Source: Clostridia bacterium (GTDB lineage Bacteria; Bacillota; Clostridia; UMGS1810). Taken from it: 64,000 nt of DNA. Where the stretch lies: positions 1-64,000 of the forward strand of contig JAFQBA010000006.1 of the NCBI GenBank assembly GCA_017416845.1, read 5' to 3'. Below the pieces are notes generated by a model, which worked only from the letters and a program-made list of their open reading frames with translations, did not search any database and had not been told where the DNA came from. This document shows positions 10,197 through 19,376 of this stretch, in pieces; the first letter of the stretch is position 1, and each line of letters begins with the position of its first letter. Both the position numbers and the translations under genes were made by a program.

Positions 10197-10937
10197 TTAT
10201 AAACCAATTGCAACAGCAGAGCCAATGTCGGTTAGTGGCACATTTGGAAAATGAATAACTTTAACTCCGTAGCTTTCACAAAACTTTTCAATTATTTCGG
10301 CATCAGGATGTGAATACAAATTTCCATTCGCTACAAGAACAGAATTTGAAATCAAAAAACACGCTCCGCCGATAAACCCGGTATCAAAACCGTCTAAAAT
10401 AATGTTTCCGGCGGAAATTTGTAATACTTCACAATCAAATTGTGACATTGCTTTTGCAACTCCTGCATCCGATGTAATGAAAGCCTTGGAATTAATCTTG
10501 CAAACACTGCATCCGGCATAACCCTGCGATACATCTATTAAGCTCTTACCGTTTAAAAAAGATTTTAATTTGCTGTCTGTATATTTAAAATTGTGTACAG
10601 CATAGTCTTCGGTAATAATGATATTGTATGCAATATCACGCGGATAGTTACTGGATAAATTTGTATCGCCATACAAAAGATTTATTGAGTATTTTTCAAG
10701 ATGTTGTTTATAATAATCATAACAAGAAGGTTCACAAAGATATGTATTATCAGAAATATGAACAAGCTGCATGTCTACATGACGAGATAAATAACGGTTA
10801 ACGTTTTTGTTTACATAAGACGGAATAATGTCTATGTCAAATTCCTTTAGTTTTAATTTTACAGGTTCTGATAAATCCGAGGAAACAACAATTGCCCGTG
10901 CAAAATTTTGGGATAGGGTATTGATTTTTGTAAACAT
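10197..10937 (-). CDS. GME-fold (amidinotransferase-like) protein, DUF6873-type
   Basis: The 246-residue protein shows features of the guanidine-modifying-enzyme fold: repeated short blocks such as DVSQGYAGCSVCKI, FITSDAGVAKAM, GFIGGACFLI and a C-terminal hydrophobic strand block ending in LTDIGSAVAIGL. I recognise it as the DUF6873 group found in Clostridia, whose reaction is not known. A cysteine-dependent amidine chemistry is possible but the catalytic Cys/His set of true amidinotransferases is not obvious. Start: the ATG at 10937 is used (AAGGA upstream, family-like start MFTKINTLSQ); the in-frame GTG-type start at 10982 lies in a terminator and is rejected. Confidence 0.55.
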   Translation of the reverse strand: MFTKINTLSQNFARAIVVSSDLSEPVKLKLKEFDIDIIPSYVNKNVNRYLSRHVDMQLVHISDNTYLCEPSCYDYYKQHLEKYSINLLYGDTNLSSNYPRDIAYNIIITEDYAVHNFKYTDSKLKSFLNGKSLIDVSQGYAGCSVCKINSKAFITSDAGVAKAMSQFDCEVLQISAGNIILDGFDTGFIGGACFLISNSVLVANGNLYSHPDAEIIEKFCESYGVKVIHFPNVPLTDIGSAVAIGL

Positions 10938-10971
10938 GGTAACAAAATCCTTATAAATACATATTATAAAT

Positions 10972-11005
10972 AAAACAACCAACCGTCACTATGCGCGGTT
11001 AGTTG
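10972..11005 (-). terminator. Second hairpin of a double terminator after the gamma-lyase gene
   Basis: Ten-base arms (caaccaaccg / cggttagttg, one mismatch) with a 10-base loop are followed on the minus strand by TTTTATTT, the better T tract of the two hairpins here. Confidence 0.65.
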
Positions 11006-11050: not shown

Positions 11051-12319
11051 TCAATTAATTTTAAGCACATTTTCAGCGGCAATCATTAAAGCTAATTTTG
11101 CTGTTTCAAATGTGAGTCCACCTTGAAAATATGCAGTAAACGGAGGTTTTATGGGACCGTCTGCAGAAATTTCAATTGAAGATCCCTGAACAAATGCACC
11201 TGCCGCCATAATAACTTTATTCTCATAGCCGGGCATGTCCCACGGAGCAGGAACAACAAAACTGTCAATTGGTGCACCTTGTTGAATACCGCGGCAAAAA
11301 GCAACAAGTTTCTCTTCGGAAAGTAGTTTTACGGAAGTAATGATGTCGCTTCTTTTTCCATCACTTGAAGGATTAACCTCATAGCCGAGTTCTTCAAAAA
11401 GTGCTGAACAGAATATTCCTGCTTTAACGGCATTTCGAACGATTTCGGGAGCCATGAAAAAGCCCTGATACATGCTGCGATTATTACCAAGCGTTGCACC
11501 GCACTCTCTGCCTATGCCGGGGCAAGTCAGTCTGTAGGAAACCATTTCAACAGCTTCTTTTGTACCGACAATATATCCGCCACTCATAGCAAGTCCGCCA
11601 CCGGGATTCTTGATAAGAGAACCAACAATGAGATCCGCTCCAACACTGCATGGTTCTTTTTCTTCAACAAATTCACCGTAACAATTATCGACAATGCAAA
11701 TTATATCGGATTTTATTGATTTAACAAAAGAAATTATCTCTCCAATTGCATCAACACTATATGTGTCACGCCAATCATACCCTTTTGAGCGTTGGATAAT
11801 TACAGCCTTAACAGTTGGATCAATGGCATTTCTTAGTCCTTCAAAATCTACTTTGGAATCAATCATATCAACCTGACGATAGTTAACTCCAAAATCTTTT
11901 AGAGAACCCGAGGAAGTGTTTCTGATTCCGATTACTTCTTCAAGAGTATCATAGGGTTTGCCTGTTGCGGCAACAAGGGTATCACCGGGGCGAAGAACTC
12001 CGTAGAGACAAGTAGAAATTGCCATTGTTCCATTCACAATGTTGTGACGCACGATTGCATCTTCACCGCCAAATACATCGGCATAAATTTTATCTAAAGT
12101 GTCTCTGCCAAGATCGTCATAACCGTATCCGGTTGTTGAACCAAGATGAGCTTCAGAAACCCCGTGATCTGAAAAAGCTTTTAAAACTCGAAGCGAATTA
12201 TAAGCACAAATTTCATCAGCCTTTCTGTAGCTTTCTGCACACTTTTCCTCGGCTTTCTTTGCTATATTCAAAATATAATCCGAAATTCCATAGTTGTTTT
12301 TTAAAAAATTATTTAACAT
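11051..12319 (-). CDS. Methionine gamma-lyase family (aluminium-resistance-type) PLP enzyme
   Basis: The 422 residues match the Met_gamma_lyase (PF06838) family of fold-type I PLP enzymes, once called aluminium-resistance proteins. Visible are the cofactor region RHNIVNGTMAI at about 91-101, an aspartate in IVDNCYGEF that should hold the PLP nitrogen, and the lysine in GSLIKNPGGGLAMSGG that should form the Schiff base. The family is expected to act on sulfur amino acids by gamma- or beta-elimination, but experimental data are thin. It is 16 bases downstream of iorB, which suggests co-transcription with amino-acid-catabolic genes. A double hairpin follows. Confidence 0.88.
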   Translation of the reverse strand: MLNNFLKNNYGISDYILNIAKKAEEKCAESYRKADEICAYNSLRVLKAFSDHGVSEAHLGSTTGYGYDDLGRDTLDKIYADVFGGEDAIVRHNIVNGTMAISTCLYGVLRPGDTLVAATGKPYDTLEEVIGIRNTSSGSLKDFGVNYRQVDMIDSKVDFEGLRNAIDPTVKAVIIQRSKGYDWRDTYSVDAIGEIISFVKSIKSDIICIVDNCYGEFVEEKEPCSVGADLIVGSLIKNPGGGLAMSGGYIVGTKEAVEMVSYRLTCPGIGRECGATLGNNRSMYQGFFMAPEIVRNAVKAGIFCSALFEELGYEVNPSSDGKRSDIITSVKLLSEEKLVAFCRGIQQGAPIDSFVVPAPWDMPGYENKVIMAAGAFVQGSSIEISADGPIKPPFTAYFQGGLTFETAKLALMIAAENVLKIN

Positions 12320-12335
12320 AATCTAACGACCTTTT

Positions 12336-12902
12336 TTAGCTGTTATAGCCAATTTCAAAAGCTTTTAAGTTGATGTCGAGAAATTTGGGAGGAACAGTTT
12401 CTTTAATAACATCAATCCAAACTTGTTTATCAACATCACTGTTTTTTGCAAAACATCCAATCAGAACAATGTTCACCGCTTTAACAGTTCCCGCTTCAAC
12501 AGCACCTTTTAAAGCATCAAGAGCAACAACATTTTTAAGTTTATCCCCTATTTTTTCCAAGATGGATTCGGGATATTTCATTGCTCCCGTGATAACAGGC
12601 ATTGGATTCATCTGCTGTGTATTAACGATAAGTTTACCGTCTTTTTTGAGATAAGGAAGCCATCTGTATGCTTCAAGTTCTTCAAAAGCAAGCATATAAT
12701 CTGCTTCACCCTCAAAAATCAAAGGAGAATAAACCTTTTTGTCATATTTAACATATGTTACAACGCTACCACCACGTTGGCTCATGCCATGTACCTCGGA
12801 CACCTTAACGTCATAGCCGGCTTTAATGGCAACCTTTCCGATAATTCTGCTGGCAAGAAGTGTACCTTGACCGCCAACACCAACAATCATAACATTACTC
12901 AT
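12336..12902 (-). CDS. iorB: Indolepyruvate ferredoxin oxidoreductase, beta subunit
   Basis: The 188-residue pyruvate/ketoisovalerate oxidoreductase gamma-type domain begins MSNVMIVGVGGQGTLLASRIIGK, with the glycine-rich loop typical of IorB, and contains the EVHGMSQRGGSVVTYVK block. It pairs with IorA to oxidise arylpyruvates, made by transamination of Trp, Phe and Tyr, to aryl-acetyl-CoA while reducing ferredoxin. Its ATG overlaps the iorA stop codon (TAATG), indicating translational coupling and a 1:1 complex. Confidence 0.95.
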   Translation of the reverse strand: MSNVMIVGVGGQGTLLASRIIGKVAIKAGYDVKVSEVHGMSQRGGSVVTYVKYDKKVYSPLIFEGEADYMLAFEELEAYRWLPYLKKDGKLIVNTQQMNPMPVITGAMKYPESILEKIGDKLKNVVALDALKGAVEAGTVKAVNIVLIGCFAKNSDVDKQVWIDVIKETVPPKFLDINLKAFEIGYNS

Positions 12903-14644
12903 TATTTGTCACCAACCTTTCTGATAGCTCCGAACTTACATACATTCATACAAAGTGTACATCCGTTACATTGTGATGCATCAATTGTGATTTTGCCGTC
13001 AACAACAGAGATTGCAGGGCAACCAAGACCCATACACATCTTGCAGTTTTTGCATTTATCTTCATCAATTATGCAAGGTGCGCCGTAATTAACTGTTTTA
13101 AGAAGAGCGCACGGACGCTGTGAAATTATAACAGAAGGCTCTTTTGCGGCAGTTTCTTCACGAACAACCTTTTCAAAGTTTTCAAGATCAAAAGGATCTG
13201 CTACAACAACTCTTTCAATGCCAACAGCATTTGCAAGCTTAACAAGGTCAACATTTCTGGTTTCTTCGCCTCTTATGGTGTAGCCGGTTGTGGGGTTTTG
13301 CTGATGACCGGTCATACCTGTAATTGAGTTATCGAGAATGATAACTGTTGAAACACCCTTATTATATACAACATCAATAAGTCCTGTAATGCCAGAGTGA
13401 ATAAATGTCGAATCACCAATTACAGCAACAAGTTTTTCGGTAAATTCAGCTCCTCTTGCTTTTTCCATACCATGAGCCATGCCGATGCCGGCACCCATGC
13501 AAACACAATAATCAAGGCTTGAAAGCGGAGCAAGTGCACCAAGAGTGTAACAACCGATATCACCACACACTTTGAGTTTAAGCTTTTTGAGGATATAATA
13601 CATACCTCTGTGAGGGCAACCGGGACACATAACAGGAGGACGAACAGGAATCTGTTCATCAACCGTGAGAGATTCGGGACCGTCAATTCCGAGAATTGCC
13701 TTTTTAATCATCTGAGGATTATATTCACCAAGTCTTGTGAAAATTTCTTTTCCGATAACATCAACACCTATACTTTTACAATAATCCTCAATAAATGAGT
13801 CGAGTTCTTCTATAACATAGATTTTGTCAACTTTAGATGCAAACTCTTTAACGAGCTTTTCACTTATGGGATATGTGATACCAAGTTTTAAGAAACTTGC
13901 ATCGGGAAGTGCTTCTTTTGCATACTGATAGGAAATTCCACAAGTAATAACACCTATTTTAGTATCATTGATTTCCATTTTATTAAAGGGACAGTCATAA
14001 CCATATTCAGCTATTTTTTCGCATCTTTCCTCAACAATGACATGGCGTTTCTTTGCCATGGCAGGCATCATAACATATTTGTCGGGATTCTTTTCAACAT
14101 CTTTAAGTTTATAATCAAGTCTCTCGCCTTCTTCAACAAGACTTTGAGAATGAGCAACTCTTGTTGTGAGTCTGAGTATTACCGGAGTATCAAACTGTTC
14201 ACTGAAGTCAAAAGCCATGCGAGCAAATTCTTTGCACTCTTCACTGTCCGAAGGTTCAATAACAGGAATTTTTGCAGCTTTGCCGTGATTACGGGTATCC
14301 TGTTCATTCTGTGAACTGTGAAGACCGGGGTCATCGGCAACTACAGCAACAAATCCACCATTAACTCCGGTGTAAGATGCGGTATAAAGAGGATCTGCTG
14401 CAACATTTAAGCCAACATGCTTCATAGCAGTCATGCTCCTGGCACCGCCAAAGCTTGCACCAATCGCAACTTCAGTTGCAACCTTTTCGTTACAAGCCCA
14501 TTCGCAGTATATTTCATCATAAAGTTTTGCAATAAATTCTGTAACCTCCGTACTGGGCGTACCGGGATATGAAGAAACAACCGTAGCACCGGCTTCGTAT
14601 ATACCGCGTGCAACCGCTTCGTTTCCTAACATAAGTTTTTTCAT
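12902..14644 (-). CDS. iorA: Indolepyruvate ferredoxin oxidoreductase, alpha subunit
   Basis: The 580-residue large subunit binds thiamine diphosphate and two [4Fe-4S] clusters. Domains in order: pyrimidine-binding domain (YPGTPSTEVTEF near the start), a central transketolase-like linker, the TPP/Mg domain with GDIGCYTLG and GDSTFIHSG followed by DNSITGMTGHQ, and a C-terminal 2x[4Fe-4S] ferredoxin domain with CKNCKMC and CNGCTLCMNVC. It generates reduced ferredoxin, the fuel for the Rnf complex encoded at 23-28 kb. AAGGAAGG precedes the ATG. It lies 48 bases downstream of three M42 aminopeptidase genes, which fits peptide breakdown feeding aromatic amino-acid fermentation. Confidence 0.96.
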   Translation of the reverse strand: MKKLMLGNEAVARGIYEAGATVVSSYPGTPSTEVTEFIAKLYDEIYCEWACNEKVATEVAIGASFGGARSMTAMKHVGLNVAADPLYTASYTGVNGGFVAVVADDPGLHSSQNEQDTRNHGKAAKIPVIEPSDSEECKEFARMAFDFSEQFDTPVILRLTTRVAHSQSLVEEGERLDYKLKDVEKNPDKYVMMPAMAKKRHVIVEERCEKIAEYGYDCPFNKMEINDTKIGVITCGISYQYAKEALPDASFLKLGITYPISEKLVKEFASKVDKIYVIEELDSFIEDYCKSIGVDVIGKEIFTRLGEYNPQMIKKAILGIDGPESLTVDEQIPVRPPVMCPGCPHRGMYYILKKLKLKVCGDIGCYTLGALAPLSSLDYCVCMGAGIGMAHGMEKARGAEFTEKLVAVIGDSTFIHSGITGLIDVVYNKGVSTVIILDNSITGMTGHQQNPTTGYTIRGEETRNVDLVKLANAVGIERVVVADPFDLENFEKVVREETAAKEPSVIISQRPCALLKTVNYGAPCIIDEDKCKNCKMCMGLGCPAISVVDGKITIDASQCNGCTLCMNVCKFGAIRKVGDK

Positions 14645-14692
14645 TGGTATTACCTTCCTTAATTTTTATTATTTTATAATTTTACCACATAA

Positions 14693-15685
14693 TTACGCAA
14701 AAATAAAGTCTTTTTTGCAAAATTCACAAAGCAACTTGATACAAGCTTCAATATCCGAAACAGAAGCGGTTTCACAAGGCGTATGAATATATCGTACAGG
14801 GATGGAAAGTGCACCTGTTACAGCTCCGCTCCCGGTAGTCTGCATAGCTCCGGCGTCTGTTCCGCCAAACGAAAGGATTTCAAACTGATGAGCAATGGAA
14901 TTATCCTTTGCAGTACGTGTCAAAAAATCCCTTAAACCTTTGTGGGTTATAACAGACTTATCCATTATTTTAATGGCAACACCATCACCAAGCTTAATAT
15001 CCATTGTTTCGCACCCGGGAGTATCTCCGGTATCAGTTACATCAACGGAAATTGCAATATCCGGTTTAATACTGTATGATGAAGCCATGGCACCTTTAAG
15101 ACCTATTTCTTCCTGCACCGAAAACAGAAAATATAAATCAAGTGTATTTGAAGAAATTTTCTTAATAGTTTCGATAAGAGCATACACCCCAAGTCTGTTA
15201 TCTAAAGCTTTGCTGACAACCTTTGAACCAATCACAGAAAAATCGCCCTTGAAAACAGCCACATCTCCCATTAAAATTTTAGCTTCTGCTTCACTTTTGC
15301 TTGAAGCGCCAATATCAATGTACATATTAGTAAATTTCAAATCTTTTTTTAAATCTGTCTTTGATTCATGACAAACACATCCTTCAACTCCGTTGGAAAA
15401 CACAACACGCTGATAAAGAGCTGTGTACACATCTACACCGCCAACCGAGGCAAAACGTACAAATCCTTTATCATCAATATAATTTGCCATGAGACCAATT
15501 TCATCCATGTGTGCCGAAATAAGAATTTTCTTACCGTCACCTTTTTTGTGAACTATAAGATTTCCAAGATTATCTTTCCAATATTCATCACAATGATTTT
15601 TTATTTCATTTATTATATATTCCGAAATTTCATTCTCATTGGCAGATACTCCGCTTATCTGTGTAAGCTTTTCTAATAATTGCAT
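14693..15685 (-). CDS. M42 family metallo-aminopeptidase, paralog A
   Basis: The 330-residue protein is a member of the FrvX/YsdC/TET family of dinuclear-metal aminopeptidases, which usually form 12-subunit tetrahedra in the cytoplasm and trim peptides. Metal and catalytic residues are all present: AHMDEIG (first His and Asp), ALDNRLG (bridging Asp), QEEIG (catalytic and ligand Glu), VDVTDTGD (Asp) and RYIHTPCE (last His). It is the last of three tandem M42 genes, with only three bases between the preceding stop and its ATG, which has AGGAGG upstream. I cannot tell substrate specificity from sequence. Confidence 0.93.
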   Translation of the reverse strand: MQLLEKLTQISGVSANENEISEYIINEIKNHCDEYWKDNLGNLIVHKKGDGKKILISAHMDEIGLMANYIDDKGFVRFASVGGVDVYTALYQRVVFSNGVEGCVCHESKTDLKKDLKFTNMYIDIGASSKSEAEAKILMGDVAVFKGDFSVIGSKVVSKALDNRLGVYALIETIKKISSNTLDLYFLFSVQEEIGLKGAMASSYSIKPDIAISVDVTDTGDTPGCETMDIKLGDGVAIKIMDKSVITHKGLRDFLTRTAKDNSIAHQFEILSFGGTDAGAMQTTGSGAVTGALSIPVRYIHTPCETASVSDIEACIKLLCEFCKKDFIFA

Positions 15686-15688
15686 GTT

Positions 15689-16726
15689 TTATGCCTCCTC
15701 TGAACCCTTTTCTATAAAGCTACCTATATCATTTAAAACAGCACGGACGAGCCTTTTCATTTCATCATAATCTCCACCATCAGCAACGCTTACTGCAGAG
15801 TGAATATATCTGCAAGGTAAAGAAATGGCATTTACCACACATCCGCCACCTGCTGTTTGAATCACCCGAGAATCATTTGCACCGTTTGAAGTTAGTTTGA
15901 ACTGATATTTTATGTTTCTTTTTTGAGCTAATCCAACAATAAATTTTCTGAGTGCAATATCGGAATATGATCCTTTGTCCATAAGTGAAATAACAGGACC
16001 TTCACCAAGCCTTGTAGCATATAGATGCTCCGGTACAAAAGCAGTGTCAGATGCAGTGGTCGCTTCAAGAACCAAGGCAACATCGGGTTTAATTCTTCTC
16101 GTAAGAACACTCGACCCCCTCATGCCCATTTCTTCCTGAACAGAAAAGCAAAAATATACGTCGCAATCATATTTATCATGCATCAGCTCCATCATTATGG
16201 CACATCCAACGCGATCATCAATAGCTTTAGCTTTGAATCTTCTACCGTTTAAACGAACATAAGGTGAATCAAGTGCAATATAATCTCCTTTGGAAACATG
16301 CTTTTGTGCTTCTTCTTTGGTAGAGAAACCAATATCAATGTACATATCTTCTTTTTTTATTACTTTTTTACGCTCTTCTTTTTCTTGAAGATGAACAGCT
16401 TTGATACCAATAACACCGGGTAATTCATCGTCGCCGACAAGAACCTTTTGCGTGAGAAGGACCCTGTCATCAATATGACCCACACAATCAAACTTAATAT
16501 AGCCGTCATCGGTTATATCGGTACATATTAGTCCAACCTCATCCATATGAGCAAATAAAGCTATTTTTTTGGAAGTTTGTTTTTTTCCTTTTTTGAGAAA
16601 AATCAGATTCCCCATTGAATCTCTGATTATATCATCTGCATAACCGGAAACCTGAGATAAAATAAAATCTGCAATCTTTTCTTCATTACCGGCAACTGCG
16701 TTCAATTCTGTTAATATCTTCAGCAT
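15689..16726 (-). CDS. M42 family metallo-aminopeptidase, paralog B
   Basis: The 345-residue protein is the middle paralog. Metal-site residues are present: AHMDEVG, AIDDRVG, QEEMG, LEATTASD (Glu instead of the Asp used by the two neighbours) and RYIHSAVS. It differs most from its neighbours in the segment before the last strand, where GANDSRVIQTAGGG replaces the GTDA block, and it carries a basic insertion (LQEKEERKKVIKKED) at about 114-128, so a different substrate or an assembly role is likely (inference). The ATG overlaps the end of paralog C by 7 bases, with GGGGGA upstream. Confidence 0.92.
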   Translation of the reverse strand: MLKILTELNAVAGNEEKIADFILSQVSGYADDIIRDSMGNLIFLKKGKKQTSKKIALFAHMDEVGLICTDITDDGYIKFDCVGHIDDRVLLTQKVLVGDDELPGVIGIKAVHLQEKEERKKVIKKEDMYIDIGFSTKEEAQKHVSKGDYIALDSPYVRLNGRRFKAKAIDDRVGCAIMMELMHDKYDCDVYFCFSVQEEMGMRGSSVLTRRIKPDVALVLEATTASDTAFVPEHLYATRLGEGPVISLMDKGSYSDIALRKFIVGLAQKRNIKYQFKLTSNGANDSRVIQTAGGGCVVNAISLPCRYIHSAVSVADGGDYDEMKRLVRAVLNDIGSFIEKGSEEA

Positions 16727-17757
16727 AGCATGTCCCCCGTTCTTTTATATGATTTTAAGAATTCAACCAAAGCAGATGAAACTGATTCGCAATCCTTAAT
16801 ATTCAATGTTTCAACGGGTGTATGCATATATTTTAAGGGTAATGAAAGCAAAAGAGTAGGTATACCTTCTTTTGCGGTTTGAATTGACCATGCGTCAGTT
16901 CCGGTATTTCCGCTTTCAACCTCAATTTCAAATGGTATTGAAGCATTATTCAAACAAGAAATAAAATTGTTACACAAAGTTTTGTGAATATTTGGTCCTT
17001 TACATATAACCGGACCACATCCGCATTTGAAGGTTCCCTTTGATTCATCGGGGGTTGTTGCATGAGTAACATCAATTGCAATTGCAACATCAGGATTCAC
17101 CGCATATGCTGCAGTAAGTGAACCCCTAAGCCCAACCTCTTCCTGTACACACGCACAAAAATATAAATCATAACCAAGATCAACATCTTTAATTGTCTCA
17201 AGCACATCAAGAAGAATTGCAACAGAGGCACGGTCATCAAGAGATTTTGAAGCGAAATAACCACTTTCAAGTTCAGTGTTAAGGCAATCAAATGTTACAG
17301 GAGATCCAATTGGAATATTTTGTTTTGCTTCTTCAGCGCTCATTCCTACATCAATGTATAACTTGTCAAAATCTATAACATCCGAATATTCATCGTCTGT
17401 CATAACATGAGGAGGTTTGGCTCCAATTACGCCTATAAAATCCCTAACGCCGTGAACATTCACTACATTTCCATATAATATTCGGGGATCAATTCCTCCT
17501 ACAGAAGTAATTAGAACGAATCCATTATCATCAATTGACTTAACCATCATACCGATTTCATCAATATGAGCTTCAAGCATAACCTTTCCGCTGCCAACTT
17601 CTGACCTCTTTAAAGCTATAACATTTCCGATAGAATCAATGTAAACTTCATCACAATATTTTTTGAATTTATTTGCAAGGTATTGGGAAATCCTATGCTC
17701 ATATCCTGAAATTCCACTAAGGGATGAAAGTTGTTTAATTTCCTTTATAATATTCAT
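16720..17757 (-). CDS. M42 family metallo-aminopeptidase, paralog C
   Basis: The 345-residue protein is the first of the three M42 genes to be transcribed. The catalytic set is complete: AHIDEIG, SLDDRAS (the usual glycine after the arginine region is replaced by Ser), QEEVGLRGS, IDVTHATTPDES and KYMHTPVETL. It is closer to paralog A in its GTDAWSIQTAKEG segment than to paralog B. Start ATG with GAGG upstream, 12 bases after the murD stop codon, so murD and the three M42 genes probably share a transcript. Confidence 0.93.
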   Translation of the reverse strand: MNIIKEIKQLSSLSGISGYEHRISQYLANKFKKYCDEVYIDSIGNVIALKRSEVGSGKVMLEAHIDEIGMMVKSIDDNGFVLITSVGGIDPRILYGNVVNVHGVRDFIGVIGAKPPHVMTDDEYSDVIDFDKLYIDVGMSAEEAKQNIPIGSPVTFDCLNTELESGYFASKSLDDRASVAILLDVLETIKDVDLGYDLYFCACVQEEVGLRGSLTAAYAVNPDVAIAIDVTHATTPDESKGTFKCGCGPVICKGPNIHKTLCNNFISCLNNASIPFEIEVESGNTGTDAWSIQTAKEGIPTLLLSLPLKYMHTPVETLNIKDCESVSSALVEFLKSYKRTGDMLC

Positions 17758-17769
17758 ATAAAAACCTCA

Positions 17770-19167
17770 TCAAAGTTTGTTTACAATAGATTTAAAGTCA
17801 TTTCCTCTTTCTTCAAAGTTTTTGTACATATCGAAGCTTGCGCATGCCGGAGATAATATGACAGAAACGTTGTGATTATTACCGGTAAGTCCTTTTCCTA
17901 CTGCAAACGCATATTTAACAGCTTCTTCCATGGTGTCTGCTTTAAAAATAGGTACTTTCTTTTTTTCAGTAACACACTTTTCAACTTCAACTTCAATTTT
18001 TGATGCAGTTGCACCAATTAAAACAAGAGCAGTCACTCGCTCTTGTATTTTTTCAGCAAGTTTGTCAAAAGGAAGATTTTTATCATACCCTCCGGCAATC
18101 AGAACAATACGTCCGGGCGGTTGTGCATCAAGCCCTGCGATTGTTCTTGTAGGTGAAGATCCGATCGAATCGTTATAGAAAGACACATCATCAAGACTTC
18201 GAACAAATTCCATGCGATGCTCAACCCCGGAAAAATTGGTCGCAACATAATCAATTGTTTCTATGCAGACAAAAGGATAAACGGCACAAATTGCAGCCAT
18301 ATAATTTTCAATGTTATGAAGTCCTTTTATCTTTATACGTAGTGTATCGATAATTTTTTCACCTCGATAATATATCACTCCGCTTTTAAGATAAGCACCG
18401 TCAACTTCTGCCTTACGGCTAAACATATCAAGATTAAATTTGTAATTATCTTTCAACCCGCATGTTACGTAATTGTCATGGTTAAGAATCAGACGACAAC
18501 CTTCATCATGAAATTTATAGATATTTGTTTTGGCATCGATATACTCTTGCATGTCTTCATGATAATCAAGATGGTTTGGACTTAAGTTTGTTATGACTGC
18601 AACCTCGGGCGATTGCTTCATGGTCTGAAGTTGAAAACTTGAAAGTTCAAGCACAACCATATCTTCTTCATAAATATCTTCAATTTGAGCAAGAAGCGGA
18701 GTACCTATATTTCCTCCGACATGAGTACGGTAACCTTCACGCTTAAGCATTTCATAAATAAGAGTTGTAGTGGTTGTTTTTCCATCACTGCCTGTAACAC
18801 CAATGATTTTACACGGACACAGCGACATAAAAATCTCCATTTCACTGGTAACAATTTTTCCGTCAGCGATTGCTTTTTGTATCTGTGGCGTTTTAACCTT
18901 TATTCCGGGAGATTTTAAAATCATATCAAATTCATCAAGGTGATCCAAATAATCTTCACCAAGATAAACTTTAGAGCAATTTGATTCTATTGCGTTCCAA
19001 ATTGGTTTTTCAAATTTTTCCTGAGTACGTCTGTCACAACCGCAAACTTTTGCACCAAGCTTATTTAAAAACTCAATTGCCGGAATATTGCTTATGCCAA
19101 GTCCAAGCACAGCAACATTCTTGTTTTTTACAGTTTCTTTAAAAATCTCATAATTAGCATTAAACAT
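17770..19167 (-). CDS. murD: UDP-N-acetylmuramoyl-L-alanine--D-glutamate ligase
   Basis: This cytoplasmic enzyme adds D-glutamate to the peptidoglycan precursor UDP-MurNAc-L-Ala using ATP. The 465 residues show the N-terminal Rossmann domain (VAVLGLGISN), the Mur-ligase P-loop GVTGSDGKTTTT, the SPNHLDYH central-domain motif and the C-terminal ligase domain with AGGYDKN. The open frame runs upstream to 19341, but that part reads through a strong terminator and the candidate RNA gene; the ATG at 19167 with GGAGAT upstream gives the family-like start MFNANYEIFKE, so I use it. It heads the M42 operon, a pairing with no known functional logic. Confidence 0.95.
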   Translation of the reverse strand: MFNANYEIFKETVKNKNVAVLGLGISNIPAIEFLNKLGAKVCGCDRRTQEKFEKPIWNAIESNCSKVYLGEDYLDHLDEFDMILKSPGIKVKTPQIQKAIADGKIVTSEMEIFMSLCPCKIIGVTGSDGKTTTTTLIYEMLKREGYRTHVGGNIGTPLLAQIEDIYEEDMVVLELSSFQLQTMKQSPEVAVITNLSPNHLDYHEDMQEYIDAKTNIYKFHDEGCRLILNHDNYVTCGLKDNYKFNLDMFSRKAEVDGAYLKSGVIYYRGEKIIDTLRIKIKGLHNIENYMAAICAVYPFVCIETIDYVATNFSGVEHRMEFVRSLDDVSFYNDSIGSSPTRTIAGLDAQPPGRIVLIAGGYDKNLPFDKLAEKIQERVTALVLIGATASKIEVEVEKCVTEKKKVPIFKADTMEEAVKYAFAVGKGLTGNNHNVSVILSPACASFDMYKNFEERGNDFKSIVNKL

Positions 19168-19198
19168 ACCGTCATCTCCGTAAAAATCTATTATATCA

Positions 19199-19229
19199 GA
19201 AAAAGCCAAACAAAAAATGTTTGGCTTAA
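19199..19229 (-). terminator. Terminator at the end of the candidate 6S-like RNA
   Basis: A perfect stem (aagccaaaca / tgtttggctt) with a small A/T loop is followed on the minus strand by TTTTTC. It stands 32 bases before the murD start, so it ends a transcript entering from the DUF1292 side rather than murD itself. Confidence 0.8.
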
Positions 19230-19376
19230 TAATCACTAACCCCATGATGCCGTTACTTGGGACATATTTTAAACCTGCCATGCAGGTGGATTCCGCCTGA
19301 CTGCTTAAATGTTCCCTTGTCTGTGCATGGTCTACAGCCACAGCCAGAGATAGGATTCCTTTCTAAAGTTATCGGT
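19202..19376 (-). ncRNA. Candidate 6S-like small RNA
   Basis: About 175 bases between the DUF1292 gene and murD have no credible reading frame but a base composition richer in G+C than other gaps, and they end in an ideal terminator. By eye the RNA folds as a rod: GACC-AUGC can pair with GCAU..GGUU, GGGA..ACAU..UUAA with UUAA..AUGUCCC, and the tip can form either CAGGCGG/CCACCUG or CCUGC/GCAGG. A rod with unpaired middle sections, and the CGGCAUC block on the 3' side, resemble 6S RNA, which binds sigma-A RNA polymerase. Placement next to DUF1292/ruvX also recalls 6S loci in other Firmicutes (from memory). The 5' end is a guess. It could be another small RNA. Confidence 0.5.

Follow-up and report, generated by a model that had tools for sequence, protein, structure and literature searches.

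Background

M42 TET peptidases have mostly been studied as homo-oligomers produced from single recombinant genes. A stretch of 64,000 nucleotides from a Clostridia bacterium (assembly GCA_017416845.1, contig JAFQBA010000006.1, positions 1 to 64,000; termed here the window) encodes three M42 aminopeptidases in tandem, and so raises the question of whether such neighboring paralogues act separately, each as a homomeric peptidase, or together, as the subunits of a shared particle. The original prediction, made from the window alone, was that the three may form a mixed TET assembly. Here this question is explored through patterns of sequence conservation and decay across orthologous gene clusters.

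Results and discussion

Three complete M42 peptidases in a compact cluster

All three genes lie on the minus strand: gene A at 16720-17757 (345 residues), gene B at 15689-16726 (345 residues) and gene C at 14693-15685 (330 residues). The start codon of B and the stop codon of A share a 7-nucleotide overlap, ATGCTGA (16720-16726, minus strand), and a 3-nucleotide gap (15686-15688, minus strand) separates the stop of B from the start of C; both junctions are present in the sequence as originally described. A purine-rich, ribosome-site-like stretch occurs 5' of each of the three starts and, in the case of C, an AGGAGG-type site sits within the 3' end of B. (Automated intergenic distances across other loci were dropped due to biased start-site guesses, which gave -25 for the A/B junction of the window rather than the true -7.)

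Each of the three proteins matches the Peptidase_M42 model (PF05343) over its entire length with 283-301 bits, and each carries the five metal ligands (H-D-E-D(E)-H), the catalytic glutamate and the second aspartate that characterize this family: H64, D66, D174, E206, E207, D229 and H312 in A; H60, D62, D170, E198, E199, E221 and H309 in B; and H59, D61, D162, E192, E193, D215 and H301 in C. The open reading frames, the PF05343 matches and the site alignment agree in bearing out the original description of three intact paralogues with full sets of metal and catalytic residues. TET-forming enzymes are among their nearest structure-bearing sequence relatives. No other true M42 gene was found in the source genome (80% complete), where a fourth, weak match falls under the cut-off.

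A murD-like gene (17770-19341) is followed, after a short gap, by the M42 triplet, beyond which lie IorA/IorB-like genes and a methionine gamma-lyase family gene. An arrangement consisting of a murD-like gene, A, B, optionally C and, farther along, a methionine gamma-lyase-type gene recurs in several Clostridia loci (e.g., L060, L071 and L086); at 11054-19341 of the window the IorA/IorB-like genes separate the M42 cluster from the methionine gamma-lyase family gene. Directly downstream of the latter is a gene for a DUF6873 protein (10200-10982, minus strand), the function of which is unknown. The closest named relative of the window is a gut Clostridia assembly (locus L025).

An old triplet with distinct orthologues

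In a profile-free search of the PDB or by BLAST, the best Thermotoga maritima match differs for each protein: TM1048 for A, TM1049 for B and TM1050 for C. For A the BLAST scores are nearly tied (194 bits for TM1048 and 196 bits for TM1049), and it is the tree that settles the assignment on TM1048: among 396 sequences, A and TM1048 form a clade with support 0.99, C and TM1050 form a clade with support 0.96, and TM1049 falls inside B. The corresponding structures are 1vho (TM1048) for A, 2fvg (TM1049) for B and 4p6y/3isx (TM1050) for C. A clear B orthologue occurs in about half of 148 Clostridia-class genomes (74, counted by hand), and at all cluster loci examined A adjoins B, normally with C next, in the order A-B-C except at L010. 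(There C precedes A and B at a distance of about 1.4 kb, the sole order change seen; at L046, L063 and L083 two tandem C genes occur, as A-B-C-C', both with intact sites.) Judged by tree position and gene order, A, B and C are ancient, co-inherited orthologue groups that correspond one-to-one with TM1048, TM1049 and TM1050. Hence, given these shared clusters and orthologies, the three genes have long stayed together as a stable unit, rather than having arisen by recent local duplication; taken alone, this is an ordinary finding.

The same comparison disposes of one apparent peculiarity of B. At the metal ligand position corresponding to Asp235 of PhTET2, B does carry a glutamate, as was pointed out from the window; this substitution, along with the GANDSR segment of B, had been taken as a hint of a special role. 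However, the glutamate is ancient and characterizes the B orthologues as a whole: it is present in 158 of 159 intact B sequences and likewise in TM1049, whereas aspartate occupies this position in 194/194 intact A and 121/121 intact C sequences. GANDSR is a small variant of GxND, the B-group counterpart of GGTDA. Both features are therefore traits of the B group, and neither can be read as a sign that B has a special role. Glutamate at the Asp235 position is also seen in an M42 subfamily that stands alone, away from the cluster (L184, L185, L191 and L192).

Subunits without active sites are retained

In some lineages C has lost most or all of its metal ligands, while its reading frame remains open and its place in the cluster is kept (families f10, f27, f18 and f8, and parts of f17); B has met the same fate in families f17 and f11 and, in a Flavonifractor-like genus (that of genome G188), lacks the catalytic glutamate or other ligands. 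Such dead C copies number 31 among the 135 loci with a classifiable C, a figure that is inflated inasmuch as dead-copy families were sampled on purpose; several dead-B loci were likewise sampled on purpose, so that their frequencies are biased as well. Among 60 loci drawn from the class-wide and relatives samples, 46 have all three sites intact, the rest including loci with a damaged or missing B or C. The notion that B dies only once C is dead or lost was considered and rejected, inasmuch as the G188 genus and family f11 combine a damaged B with an intact C.

Several lines of evidence indicate that these copies are maintained. Their reading frames stay open from genus to genus, and for dead B and dead C dN/dS is about 0.085-0.155, similar to that of live A, as estimated from the closest unsaturated pairs (dS being saturated in many pairs, and most of the affected genomes being metagenome assemblies). 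The dead C of L104 is predicted to fold (pLDDT 95), its best Foldseek match being TmPep1050 with a TM score of 0.91. In dead B the PDZ-like domain is at 87% of live-B conservation versus 42% near the active site; a similar preference sought in dead C was rejected (0.47 versus 0.46 of live conservation), so that better retention of this domain holds only for dead B. Open frames, low dN/dS and predicted fold together imply that the dead copies are maintained proteins. Moreover, clusters are the only setting in which dead copies turned up, always beside A and B, and all of the stand-alone M42 genes checked (20/20) retain every ligand. That dead copies should be kept up beside intact paralogues suggests that they serve structurally, presumably within a shared complex.

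Coupled decay of the B site and the A loop

Which subunits might share a complex is suggested by a histidine on a loop near the active site. In the M18 peptidase DNPEP, a TET-shaped dodecamer of dimers, the essential loop residue His170 reaches into the active site of the other subunit in the dimer, and the authors of that study infer the same for M42 enzymes (PMC3472314); in PhTET2 the residue concerned is His123, which may sit near the site of an adjacent subunit and the mutation of which raises the KM (PMC8993905). A possesses this feature as H117 (in GAKPPHVMT; codon at 17407-17409, minus strand), which aligns with His123 of PhTET2, and B possesses it as H112 (in GIKAVHLQE; codon at 16391-16393, minus strand). 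The loop of C is shorter and lacks it: H106 within the short loop of the window's C neither aligns with His123 nor is conserved, and the PPH-type loop histidine is missing from 156 of 157 aligned C sequences, live or dead. The Thermotoga proteins follow the same pattern, the histidine being present in TM1048 and TM1049 and absent from TM1050.

If the histidine of A serves the active site of B and that of B serves the active site of A, then, wherever the B site is dead, the histidine of A is free to decay, while that of B must stay. This prediction was framed after dead B copies had been seen to retain their histidine, but before the A loop was inspected; the A loop turned out to be lost in 17/17 dead-B loci. 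The test was then enlarged with new genomes to 195 loci. The A loop histidine is lost in 31 of the 36 loci where the B site has been hit, the other 5 keeping it, as compared with 2 of the 159 loci where B is intact, the remaining 157 keeping it. The reciprocal expectation also holds: the loop histidine of B is kept at all 195 loci, dead sites included, and the A site is intact at 194 of these.

The association persists when phylogeny is taken into account. With the loop columns left out of the tree (194 loci), a Pagel-type test favors dependent over independent evolution (likelihood ratio statistic 51.2, df 4, p = 2e-10), and by parsimony the losses of the B site and of the A loop histidine coincide on the same branch four times. 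The pattern occurs in at least four separate lineages (family f17, the G188 genus, family f11 and genome G132). The contrast can be seen between close relatives: within the G188 genus all 5 intact-B genomes keep the PPH motif in A (as QPPHL), whereas all 13 damaged-B genomes lose the motif and 10 of the 13 lose the histidine itself; within family f11 the contrast is between 3 damaged-B genomes and 1 intact-B genome. Exceptions occur in each direction. The A loop histidine is lost beside an intact B at L064 and L224; the A loop is kept at L061 and L167, each of which has but a single ligand change in B; and L206, L211 and L212, where B has been hit, retain the histidine within a degraded A loop. 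(L224 belongs to the same family, f40, as L230, in which B and C have single ligand changes.) It is possible that L224, L230 and L064 represent intermediate states.

Coupled loss of the B site and the A loop histidine is the trace to be expected of a loop-swapped A:B dimer. Homodimers would not fit: as the A site stays intact in every lineage, A:A dimers should still need their loop histidine, and the loop would be of no use to a dimer of dead B. An A:B dimer with swapped loops would account for both observations.

Alternative explanations

One alternative is that each gene makes its own homomeric TET peptidase, with residue preferences that complement one another as in homomeric PhTET1, PhTET2 and PhTET3, and that clustering merely reflects co-regulation. 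The complete sites of A, B and C in the window would suit this, as would the existence of fully intact, stand-alone C-type genes and the fact that TM1050 alone is an active aminopeptidase (PMC3511314). However, if A and B never meet, this leaves unexplained why a damaged B keeps its loop histidine at 36 loci and why A loses its loop histidine just where the B site has been hit, as well as why dead copies are found in clusters only; it is thus regarded as improbable. Even less credence is given to the view that dead copies are mere relics, or now serve some unrelated function, such that ligand loss says nothing about assembly. Some dead C copies are indeed highly diverged (scoring as low as about 40-60 bits with the C model), and 31 of the 135 loci that could be classified lack C, in many cases within families sampled on purpose; yet relics would hardly be expected to retain open frames across genera, a low dN/dS in unsaturated pairs and an invariable position adjoining A and B, nor would dead B be expected to preserve specifically its loop and its PDZ-like domain.

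A further alternative accepts a mixed particle, but of the Pyrococcus type, in which A:A, B:B and C:C homodimers are combined within a dodecamer and the loop histidine acts across the trimeric apex. This architecture has been demonstrated in vitro for PhTET2 and PhTET3 (PMC4220976), and molecular dynamics of PhTET2 indicates that the loop also contacts subunits besides the dimer partner (PMC8993905). Against it, the M18 histidine crosses inside the dimer (PMC3472314), and the Bacillus subtilis M42 paralogues YtoP and YsdC are reported to form a paralogue dimer (PMC10090944). Homodimers that exchange loops internally fare no better, inasmuch as an intact A site would still need the loop of A after the death of B, yet that loop is lost. 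By analogy with M18 DNPEP and with cross-linked YtoP-YsdC, loop exchange within the dimer is favored over exchange at the trimeric apex, and the Pyrococcus-type arrangement is considered unlikely.

A proposed crossed A:B heterodimer

The explanation that best accommodates these data, to which a probability of roughly 0.8 is assigned, is that A pairs obligatorily with B, the active sites of this heterodimer being completed in trans, within a TET-like assembly. We infer this from features that can be read from the sequences themselves: orthology, clustering (A adjoining B at the loci examined and C often too, as the co-inheritance of partner genes would have it for a heteromeric M42 complex), intact sites, purifying selection on dead subunits and coupled loss. 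H117, on a flexible loop of A, would enter the metal site of B, and H112 of B would enter that of A; A:B dimers, probably along with C dimers, would then build a hollow, TET-like peptidase, its dodecameric form being suggested by family membership, that may trim peptides within the cell. In many lineages the B or C site would have decayed, the protein staying on as a scaffold, and a dead B would still be required by A as the donor of a loop histidine. One observation that runs counter to this proposal is that TM1048 and TM1049 were each crystallized alone.

The place of C is less clear. Lacking the PPH histidine, live or dead, C is probably a C:C unit, and the chance that it belongs to the same particle as A:B is put at about even. 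TM1050 by itself forms active homododecamers (PMC3511314; PDB 4p6y), which, together with the missing loop histidine, implies that C may be a separate homomer. Hence, of the mixed three-subunit TET originally envisioned, hetero-assembly gains support specifically for A:B, through coupled decay, while the three-way mix is supported only indirectly, by the keeping of C, live or dead, within the cluster. The precedent from Pyrococcus is likewise real but looser than was implied: PhTET2/PhTET3 hetero-dodecamers exist, but were made in vitro by mixing two kinds of homodimer (PMC4220976).

Relationship to known systems

Like the proteins considered here, PhTET2 and PhTET3 of Pyrococcus horikoshii are M42 paralogues, and they combine complementary specificities within one tetrahedral particle; that particle, however, consists of two kinds of homodimer, and neither dead subunits nor crossed active sites were described for it (PMC4220976). 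A closer precedent for the pairing of paralogues is YtoP-YsdC, two bacterial M42 paralogues that were cross-linked in B. subtilis cells and modelled as a heterodimer (PMC10090944; PDB 9a5r), though this is another M42 pair, for which the portion of the report consulted describes neither loop exchange nor the evolution of pseudo-subunits. In DNPEP the partner's loop histidine completes the site within a homodimer (PMC3472314), whereas here the partners would be different proteins. T. maritima possesses orthologues of all three proteins with the same loop pattern, but in the papers found only TM1050 has been characterized as an enzyme and a hetero-complex was not reported (PMC3511314). In the literature searched, which left out most subscription papers, there was no report of M42 pseudo-subunits, of a TM1048-TM1049 complex or of a hetero-TET of the kind proposed here. 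M42 hetero-assembly itself is already known; the coupled decay is the stronger finding.

Other self-compartmentalizing peptidases, namely the proteasome (among its beta subunits) and ClpP/ClpR, retain non-catalytic paralogous subunits; these differ from M42 enzymes in having an unrelated fold and chemistry and in that their hetero-complexes have been proven experimentally. A hetero-TET of a comparable sort, in which reciprocally trans-completed A:B dimers associate obligatorily with C and which has repeatedly gained non-catalytic subunits in Clostridia, is given odds that are evenly balanced.

Conclusions

If A and B are obligate partners, then work on single genes from the TM1048 and TM1049 groups has dealt with half-enzymes, and for a large share of Clostridia both activities and annotations would have to be revised. 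The triplets would also provide a natural record of a self-compartmentalizing enzyme evolving non-catalytic subunits. More generally, the system allows a direct test of whether a swapped loop histidine works between M42 subunits, and the coupled decay makes the notion of a hetero-TET with shared sites directly testable; the T. maritima proteins needed for this have been produced and crystallized before.
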